Below, piece by piece: positions 58,202 through 60,736 of a DNA stretch of 64,000 nucleotides; within the stretch, counting starts at the first letter, position 1, and every line of letters begins with the position of its first letter. Position numbers and translations under genes: made by a program. Location of the stretch: positions 1 through 64,000 of the forward strand of contig JBBDNB010000021.1 of assembly GCA_040877935.1 (NCBI GenBank), in the 5' to 3' direction. The notes below the pieces were generated by a model. That model worked only from the letters and a program-made list of their open reading frames with translations, searched no databases and had not been told where the DNA came from. Source of the stretch: Chitinophagales bacterium (lineage in GTDB: Bacteria; Bacteroidota; Bacteroidia; Chitinophagales; CAIOSU01).

Positions 58202-59251
58202 ATGCCTCAACAACTTCCCAATATCAGGGCTTTAAGCAAAGCCGAGTTGAAAAGCTATTTTTTGGAAAATGGCCACAAAGCATTTCGTGCCACACAGGTT
58301 TGGGAATGGCTCTGGCAAAAATCTGCACTGTCATTTGAGGAGATGAGCAATCTTTCCAAAGAAATGAGAACTGCACTTGAGGCGGATTTTGAATTGCCAC
58401 ATATCACACTGGATTTACAACAAAAAAGCAAAGACGGCACCATTAAAAGCCGTTTTAAACTCAACGATGGGCATTTGGTGGAAGGCGTTTTGATTCCCGC
58501 TGAAGACCGCTTTACGGCTTGCGTTTCTTCTCAGGTGGGCTGCAGTTTGAGTTGTAAATTCTGCGCTACAGGTTTTCTTGATCTAAAGCGCAATTTGCGA
58601 GCCGATGAAATCTACGACCAGGTATGCATGATCAACCGGCAATCGTTGGAGCATCATAGCGCTCCATTGAGCAATATTGTTTTTATGGGCATGGGCGAAC
58701 CATTGCTCAATTATAAAAATGTATTACAGGGCATTGACAGAATTACTGCTGAAGATGGGCTGAATATTTCCCCAAAAAGAATCACCGTTTCTACTGTAGG
58801 CATTGCCAAAATGATCAAAAAGCTGGGAGAAGATGAAGTGCGTTTCAACCTGGCGCTTTCCCTACATGCGGCCAATGATACAAAGCGCGATAAGATTATG
58901 GCCATCAACGAAAGCAATAATATTGAAGTGCTGACAGAAGCCCTGCAATATTTTCACGAGAAAAACCCAAAATCCAAAATCTCCTTTGAGTACATCCTTT
59001 TCAAAGGATTCAATGATACTAAAAAGGATGCACAGGAATTGATAGAACTCTGTAGCAAAGTGCCTGCAAAAATCAATATCATAGAGTATAACAAAGTAGA
59101 AGATGTGGAATTTGAAAAGGCCGGGGAGAAAAGACGTAAAGGTTTTGTTGCACTGCTTGAAAAGGCCGGAATCACAGCAACTGTAAGGCGTTCGCGCGGT
59201 GAAGATATTGATGCTGCCTGTGGTCAATTGGCAAATAAGACCCTGGCTTAG
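58202..59251 (+). CDS. rlmN: dual-specificity 23S rRNA/tRNA adenine-C2 methyltransferase RlmN
   Basis: 349 residues from ATG 58202 (MPQQLPNIRALSKAELKS); the frame is open further upstream but overlaps tauE and reads as non-conserved. Radical SAM motif CKFCATG with Cys-x3-Cys-x2-Cys (SCKFC context SLSCKFCATGF), MGMGEPLLNY, and the C-terminal Cys in DIDAACGQL that is methylated during catalysis. Methylates A2503 of 23S rRNA and A37 of some tRNAs. Confidence 0.95.
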   Translation: MPQQLPNIRALSKAELKSYFLENGHKAFRATQVWEWLWQKSALSFEEMSNLSKEMRTALEADFELPHITLDLQQKSKDGTIKSRFKLNDGHLVEGVLIPAEDRFTACVSSQVGCSLSCKFCATGFLDLKRNLRADEIYDQVCMINRQSLEHHSAPLSNIVFMGMGEPLLNYKNVLQGIDRITAEDGLNISPKRITVSTVGIAKMIKKLGEDEVRFNLALSLHAANDTKRDKIMAINESNNIEVLTEALQYFHEKNPKSKISFEYILFKGFNDTKKDAQELIELCSKVPAKINIIEYNKVEDVEFEKAGEKRRKGFVALLEKAGITATVRRSRGEDIDAACGQLANKTLA

Positions 59252-59292
59252 TGTCAAACAGATAAGCTTGAAATCGGGAAAACTTCAATCTG

Positions 59293-59375
59293 CCCTTACT
59301 TTGTTACAAAATAATCAAAAAACACCCCTTACTTTGTTACAATATTTTGTGAAAATTACCCTTACTTTGTTACAA
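59293..59375 (+). repeat. three 17-bp direct repeats at exact 33-bp period
   Basis: CCCTTACTTTGTTACAA occurs identically at 59293-59309, 59326-59342 and 59359-59375, separated by unrelated 16-base AT-rich spacers. The last copy ends 10 bases before the ATPase start codon. The period is close to three DNA turns, as for operator or iteron arrays. Confidence 0.85.
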
Positions 59376-59385
59376 ATGGATTGAA

Positions 59386-60735
59386 ATGAAGTTTACAAGG
59401 CAAGTTGAAAAAGAGTTAAAGGATTGGCAATCAAGAGTTGATAGAAAGCCTTTGATTCTCAGGGGGGCAAGACAAGTTGGCAAAACTACGCTCATTGAAT
59501 ATTTTGCCCAATCTTATAAACAATTTATTCATCTTAACCTCGAAAAAAAGTCAGATAGATATTATTTTGAAAAATTTGAAGATGTCAAAAAGATTGTTGA
59601 AGCACTTTTTATCAAAAATGGATTTTCTGCTCAGCTGCCTCAAACATTACTGTTTATTGATGAAATACAAGAATCATCCAAAGCCATACAACTTTTACGC
59701 TATTTCTATGAAGATATCCCTGAATTACACGTGGTTGCAGCAGGGTCTTTGCTTGAATTTGCCCTAGGAGAAGTAAAATCTTTTCCCGTAGGAAGAGTTG
59801 AGTATCTTTATCTTTTCCCTTTGAATTTCCCGGAATTTCTTGCAGCCAGAAATAAGAAAAACCTTGCAAATGAACTGCGCACTGTTCCCGTAAAAGATAT
59901 AGCACATGCAGCTCTTTTGGAAGAATTCCACATATATGCTATTACAGGGGGTATGCCTGAGTTGATTAAAACATTCACTCTCGAGAAAAGCATGATCAGT
60001 TTACCCAGGGTATTTGAAAGCATTTGGGAAACCTATAAAAAAGATATCGAAAAATATGGCCGGAGTAGTACTGAAAAGAAAATCATAAAACACATTATGG
60101 AAACTGCACCGGAATATTTGGATCAGCGTGTGAAGTTTCAAAATTTTGGACACTCCAATTACAGGTCAAGAGAAGTGAGTGAAGCCATGAAAAGCTTAGA
60201 TGATGCAAAAGTAATACAGCTTATATACCCGACAACTGAAAGAACGGTTCCACCGAAAACTAATTACAGAAAATCCCCAAGATTACAATTTCTTGATACT
60301 GGTTTGGTAAACTATGCTTTAGGTATTTTACCACAATTAATGGAAGTAAAAGATTTAAGCAATGCTTATAAAGGTGCACTTATTCCTCATTTAATAACAC
60401 AGGAGCTGATTTCACTAAATATATTTGCCTATAAAAAACCACATTTCTGGGTTAGGGATAAACGACAATCTTCTGCTGAAGTAGATTTGGTAATTCCATA
60501 TAAAGACAAACTTATTCCAGTAGAAATAAAATCGGGTAGTACAGGTACACTAAAGTCTTTACAATCTTTTATAGATACGTCAGAGCATTCCTATGCCATA
60601 CGTATTTATTTTGGGACATTTAAAATTGAAAAACATCAGACAATAAAAGGAAAGCCTTATTTATTGATGAACCTACCTTATTATTTGGGAACGCAATTAC
60701 ATGCCTATATAGCGTATTTTGTAGAGCAACATTAA
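59386..60735 (+). CDS. AAA ATPase with DUF4143 domain
   Basis: 449 residues. N-terminal P-loop ATPase of the AAA_14 type: Walker A RGARQVGKTTL (residues about 25-35), Walker B TLLFIDEIQE and sensor AAGSLLEFAL. The C-terminal ~200 residues carry DUF4143, with RKSPRLQFLDTGLVNYALG and a PD-(D/E)xK-like nuclease-type core (SAEVDLVIPYKDKLIPVEIK). The family is abundant in bacteria and of unknown function; many members are encoded as mobile-like singletons. The stop is one base from the stop of the opposing nfu-like gene. Confidence 0.88.
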   Translation: MKFTRQVEKELKDWQSRVDRKPLILRGARQVGKTTLIEYFAQSYKQFIHLNLEKKSDRYYFEKFEDVKKIVEALFIKNGFSAQLPQTLLFIDEIQESSKAIQLLRYFYEDIPELHVVAAGSLLEFALGEVKSFPVGRVEYLYLFPLNFPEFLAARNKKNLANELRTVPVKDIAHAALLEEFHIYAITGGMPELIKTFTLEKSMISLPRVFESIWETYKKDIEKYGRSSTEKKIIKHIMETAPEYLDQRVKFQNFGHSNYRSREVSEAMKSLDDAKVIQLIYPTTERTVPPKTNYRKSPRLQFLDTGLVNYALGILPQLMEVKDLSNAYKGALIPHLITQELISLNIFAYKKPHFWVRDKRQSSAEVDLVIPYKDKLIPVEIKSGSTGTLKSLQSFIDTSEHSYAIRIYFGTFKIEKHQTIKGKPYLLMNLPYYLGTQLHAYIAYFVEQH

Positions 60736-60736
60736 A

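Follow-up and report, generated by a model that had tools for sequence, protein, structure and literature searches.

Phased direct-repeat arrays before PDC-S01 ATPase-nuclease genes as likely private operators of the gene's own product

Closest described systems and the locus in the window

PDC-S01, an ATPase plus a PD-(D/E)XK domain, is abundant and has not been validated (PMC12988326, PMC13356809); it is reported to be the fourth most common prokaryotic defence system (29,494 Bacteria and 9,986 Archaea), and experimental validation is pending for most PDCs (PMC12988326). No upstream array is mentioned in the relevant sections of these two papers (PMC12988326, PMC13356809), and our search of the open-licence literature on PDC-S01, DUF4143, AAA_14/COG1373, PF13173/PF13635/SSO1545 and STAND proteins retrieved no description of the arrays reported here. 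The nearest described arrangement is that of RptR, a product of the same operon that represses its own promoter, where three direct repeats lie at the promoter of a defence gene, as in the array analysed here (PMC12255303). RptR is, however, a separate 9-kDa protein whose 9-bp repeats are found 58-31 bp upstream of its start codon, whereas our locus consists of a lone ATPase-nuclease gene with units of ~17 bp at 32/33 bp. In mycobacteria, IniR is a promoter-binding ATPase, as we propose for the PDC-S01 protein, and was likened by its authors to SSO1545 (PMC5760070), although it has other DNA-binding and sensor domains and controls another operon. Repeat operators with autoregulation are already known (RptR); a family-wide, phase-locked and sequence-private version for PDC-S01 was not found in the literature searched.

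The window (the whole stretch of DNA that was analysed, 64,000 nucleotides from a Chitinophagales bacterium) carries three copies of the 17-mer CCCTTACTTTGTTACAA with a period of exactly 33 bp, separated by AT-rich spacers that are mutually unrelated (Table 1). The first-pass annotation, made from the sequence alone, had claimed a triple exact 17-mer at 33-bp spacing ending 10 bp before an ATG, AT-rich unrelated spacers and a DUF4143 ATPase gene downstream; all of this held, the copies being exact, the coordinates confirmed and the 449-aa product matching Pfam AAA_14 (aa 20-152) and DUF4143. The array as such is shown by computation. Allowing up to 3 mismatches, CCCTTACTTTGTTACAA was matched in the 64-kb window just three times, by the array units themselves (shuffle mean 0.42), and self-matches of at least 15/16 at lags 18-60 were found at two places in the whole window, both inside this array. 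Exact copies of CCCTTACTTTGTTACAA in the own genome were limited to the three window units.

Table 1. Positions of the array, the gene and related features (window coordinates, unless a locus is named).
Feature	Position	Strand	Basis	Remark
Array unit 1, CCCTTACTTTGTTACAA	59293..59309	+	exact-copy search of the sequence	
Array unit 2	59326..59342	+		identical to unit 1, offset 33 bp
Array unit 3	59359..59375	+		identical, a further 33 bp; ends 10 bp before the start codon
Stretch with array and gene	59252..60736	+		1485 bp long; flanked by rlmN and a convergent nifU-like gene
PDC-S01 gene	59386..60735	+	Pfam, PADLOC, alignment, AlphaFold2 models, fold searches	ATG at 59386
Upstream copies in flavobacterial genome G450	L237:420-735 and L019:2600-2990			

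A second array of the own genome, on contig C39 (~170590-170730), comprises four units that are close variants of the window unit and stands before a paralogue 62% identical to the window protein. Since the units at the two genes are near-identical, cross-regulation between the two proteins is conceivable.

A spacing rule across the family

Relatives of the window gene were collected from 20 genomes near the window genome (12 with a match), from 60 genomes searched by protein query (20 with a match), from 392 genomes of the phylum (47 with a match at E 1e-30) and from seven further genomes (6 with a match), together with additional stretches, viral contigs and plasmid or phage records. Before counting, 21 duplicates, 10 genes without a recognisable Walker A motif and 3 without a start were left out, as were 3/181 for protein or upstream length, leaving 178 genes that gave 140 representatives at 70% identity; owing to these exclusions fragments are under-represented, and the sample is skewed toward relatives from the window's phylum. 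Each gene was scored by the best 16-nt self-match in the 170 bp upstream. The own genome alone has ten DUF4143 matches, and most of the upstream regions of these genes and of 12 relatives from other genomes showed repeats of their own at ~32-33 bp, in many cases with a different repeat sequence.

As for the whole set, a self-match of at least 14/16 was present in 66/140 representatives, compared with 1.1% of dinucleotide shuffles, and a direct repeat at lag 31-34 in 73/140 against 2.1 expected. At a threshold of 13/16, lag 32 was observed in 36/140 (0.45 expected) and lag 33 in 39/140 (0.55 expected); their multiples, lags 64 and 66, occurred in 17/140 (0.35 expected) and 23/140 (0.3 expected), respectively. 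Lag 23, about one helical turn shorter than 32/33, was found in 4/140 (0.35 expected). Counted exclusively, 73 representatives have lag 31-34, 4 have lag 23, 2 have lag 64-66 only and 61 have none of these, so that by the threshold used the array is not needed by every member. In the controls, the 174 other upstream regions of the same loci gave 2 cases at lag 32, 1 at lag 33 and 5 at 14/16 or better, gene interiors gave 0/127 at this last threshold and regions farther upstream 4/123. Arrays across the family hold two to seven units. These counts show that the feature held in common is the spacing (32 or 33, in few genes 23) and not the sequence, which varies among subfamilies.

The members with period 23 are L143, L144, L145 and L047; in L145 seven units stand in register, the last one overlapping a TATATTTG box.

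The 33-bp period of the window array lets one frame read LTLLQ three times, as the first-pass annotation had pointed out. The frame is real (open from 59187 to 59384), but it carries no coding signal, because about half of the family arrays use a period of 32 or mix 32 and 33. A coding role was rejected on this ground, as a period divisible by 3 is not kept in the family, where 36/140 representatives have period 32 and others have 32/33 mixtures.

Closer to the window gene, the repeat sequence is conserved as well. Among relatives of at least 40% identity, 23/27 (including the window gene; counted by eye from the listing) have at least two window-type units, defined by a match of at least 11/17, placed 32/33 or 66 bp apart. 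Among the remaining four, L024 carries a full array whose sequence is its own, the arrays of L022 and L094 are weak, and L087 has a single unit. The consensus drawn from 83 units of this close clade is approximately ATTTACCCTTATTTTGTTACAA.

The fixed period also extends to several phyla, as shown by 14/18 named loci with at least 13/16 at lag 31-34. Self-matches at this lag reached 16/16 in Collinsella and Agathobacter, 16 in Pontiellaceae and in a phage contig from human faeces, 14 and 15 in two Acinetobacter, 14 in Fusobacterium, Glaesserella and a planctomycete, and 13 in Criblamydia; plasmids from several other phyla carry arrays too, as does a phage contig. The archaeon Haladaptatus (L204) gave only 12/16, a value reached by 1% of shuffles, and no repeat at lag 31-34 of 12/16 or better was detected in Vibrio (L192), Segatella (L198) or Parabacteroides (L197), the last of which has 15/16 at lag 66.

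The array could in principle have arisen by chance or by tandem slippage, and the region is indeed A/T-rich. Against this stand the shuffles and controls, the exact periods across several phyla, and the identity of the units (90%) compared with that of the spacers (50%, with 32% expected from composition), a contrast produced partly by construction, the arrays having been selected for unit identity. With the lag enrichment refuting it at the family level, this explanation is all but excluded. Neither of the two outcomes that the first-pass annotation had named as refuting was observed: phased arrays do stand before homologues, in 23/27 close relatives and 73/140 family members, and simple tandem slippage fails as an explanation, with spacers that vary and units that are kept.

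Motif inheritance and genomic setting

The motif was found to follow the protein family and not the host genome, a co-divergence that is shown by computation. Motif similarity climbs with protein identity, being at chance under about 32% identity and near chance under about 40%, and present in 96% of pairs at 60-70% and in 71% at 70-90%. Paralogues in the same genome (<50% identity) had a motif in common in 1/34 pairs, while of the 168 between-genome pairs at 50-90% identity 67% shared it. Furthermore, nine genomes hold 20 instances of the exact degenerate unit, every one of them in an array before a PDC-S01 gene, which shows that the unit is absent from the rest of these genomes. A wider regulon was not visible in these nine genomes, where 14 one-mismatch matches outside PDC-S01 arrays, one of them the RhuM case described below, compare with 10 for a reversed-pattern control.

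A different, host-encoded regulator could be the protein for which the array serves as operator. In support of this, dedicated small repressors often bind direct-repeat operators, and RptR binds three of them at a defence-island promoter (PMC12255303). However, motifs are unrelated among same-genome paralogues and common to relatives across genomes, the exact units are confined to PDC-S01 genes in the nine genomes, and the ORFs flanking the gene in the window include no evident regulator gene; we consider this alternative unlikely. Such a pattern of paralogues, relatives and private units would not arise from a host-wide regulator but does arise from a protein that travels with the array, and on this ground the gene's own product is favoured as the binder. 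The identity-motif test alone cannot separate a co-inherited regulator from the own product, and when the protein was scanned for segments whose variation follows the motif, the highest signals fell in conserved parts of the ATPase and nuclease, the putative winged helix giving only a minor peak.

Regarding the genomic setting, rlmN and the nifU-like gene are directly adjacent, with a gap of about 12-14 bp, in 2/29 other rlmN loci examined (G010 and G030), both from a single other family within the taxonomic order of the window genome. In the window, array and gene are thus a one-gene unit in a gap, although gain and loss are not told apart by this alone. This arrangement raises the possibility that the repeats are recognition sites for integration or transposition of a mobile single-gene cassette, which would agree with the filling of the rlmN-nifU gap seen in the two relatives, with the patchy distribution and with the copies on plasmids and phage contigs. 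But in the window the array is one-sided, the end of the gene adjoins the nifU stop without a matching repeat, and the neighbouring ORFs include no evident transposase gene, which makes a cassette very unlikely.

On contig C103 of the flavobacterial genome G450, the PDC-S01 upstream region recurs in nearly identical form, with two units, ahead of a RhuM-family gene. This near-copy is 2.9 kb upstream of the PDC-S01 array itself; its homology extends to about the second unit, and an AbiEii-like nucleotidyltransferase gene separates the two. It may be that the operator was placed in front of another gene, or that the region was duplicated locally.

Fold of the product, promoter position and proposed mechanism

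The PADLOC model for PDC-S01 matches the window protein over its full length (residues 1-447, E 1.6e-184), and also matches a short-subfamily paralogue as well as the relatives from Collinsella and Agathobacter. In an alignment of 13 sequences E365, D367, E380 and K382 are invariant, in a C-terminus that resembles PD-(D/E)XK nucleases; we take these residues to be the PD-(D/E)XK motif from their pattern, and with this reservation the window protein is an ATPase fused to a PD-(D/E)XK domain. PDC-S01 is an abundant defence candidate whose anti-phage activity is inferred, without experiment.

An AlphaFold2 model of the window protein (13 sequences) had a mean pLDDT of 88 and a pTM of 0.85. Its nearest folds were the archaeal ATPase 2qen (Z 16.1, rmsd 4.8, 272 aligned) and 2fna (Z 14.7, rmsd 4.3, 268 aligned), followed by NLR and CED-4 proteins at Z 13-14, suggesting a STAND-type NTPase by predicted fold only. 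The two best structural matches, PABY2304 (2qen) and SSO1545 (2fna), are archaeal STAND-type ATPases aligned over residues 1-313, which leaves out the C-terminal nuclease part. Foldseek alone ranked ORC and Cdc6 first: Orc1/Cdc6 (2qby, E 6.6e-6) is likewise an AAA+ protein, one that sits on origin DNA, but the TM-scores are low (0.27/0.31) and there is no sign of an origin at the window locus. A PDB sequence search returned a single weak match (4qdy, E 0.019), and an NCBIfam search just a weak RFC-like match under the cut-off. Residues 203-308 folded alone (pLDDT 84) matched mostly winged-helix regulators, and the order of secondary structure in the model is consistent with a winged helix after the ATPase part. 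As none of these weak matches had an E below 0.07, the winged helix predicted at about aa 228-302 is probable and not proven.

To locate the array relative to the promoter we used the box TANNTTTG, which we take to be the Bacteroidota-type -7 box. This box was present between the last unit and the ATG in 22/72 arrays against 3.8 expected, mostly 0-21 bp past the last unit, and upstream of the array in 6/68 against 3.2 expected. Where a promoter is recognisable, the array thus lies at or just upstream of it, a position that is shown. Phased repeats at the gene's own promoter are what marks an autoregulatory operator here, and the arrays have them; binding by the own product is inferred, with indirect support.

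The position also bears on a possible function of the repeats in an RNA leader, in favour of which all units precede the ATG, in some cases by no more than 10 nt. Because the recognisable -7 boxes sit downstream of the last unit, the array would not be transcribed in those cases, and helical-turn spacing and palindromic units suit DNA; a role in RNA is very unlikely.

The reading we prefer, at a probability of roughly 0.66, is that the gene's own protein binds the repeats, which would form a private operator array in helical phase, the binding itself being inferred without any binding data. The PDC-S01 protein, a STAND-like AAA+ ATPase, would contact the units through its probable winged helix, and because the units are about three helical turns apart, neighbouring molecules could be placed on one face of the DNA and bind cooperatively. 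Cooperative binding at three-turn intervals, perhaps by the ATPase, had already been suggested in the first-pass annotation; this is supported, while direct binding is not shown. As the array overlaps or adjoins the promoter, binding would most likely repress the gene and hold a costly ATPase-nuclease at a low level, and triggering would release the repression; both the sign of the regulation and the trigger are inferred.

Alternatively, the array might be a docking platform or self-mark of a nuclease complex, for assembly or licensing at its own locus, with regulation being secondary. The invariant nuclease-like residues, the predicted STAND-like fold, close to that of the oligomerising NLR and Avs proteins, and the exact phasing, which would suit an ordered assembly, speak for it. 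Against it, the array is right at the promoter, where regulation is the simpler role, and there is no evidence of cleavage or assembly, so that we regard docking as improbable. The own-product operator can be extended to a bolder and only possible version, in which assembly on the private array silences the gene and also forms a guard state that is broken by phage, with an orthogonal pair per subfamily.

If the operator reading is true, sequence-specific DNA binding would be the first testable biochemical property of PDC-S01, and the private operator would offer a reporter for PDC-S01 triggers. Should every subfamily recognise a unit of its own, PDC-S01 would also amount to a large natural collection of orthogonal protein-operator pairs whose spacing rule is known.

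Palindromes of at least 11/12 were found in 14/78 upstream regions with an array (1.2 expected) and in 14/62 without one (0.5 expected), which by analogy may fit dimer operators. In the members without an array a single strong palindrome upstream is frequent, for example in L032, L036, L070 and L150.
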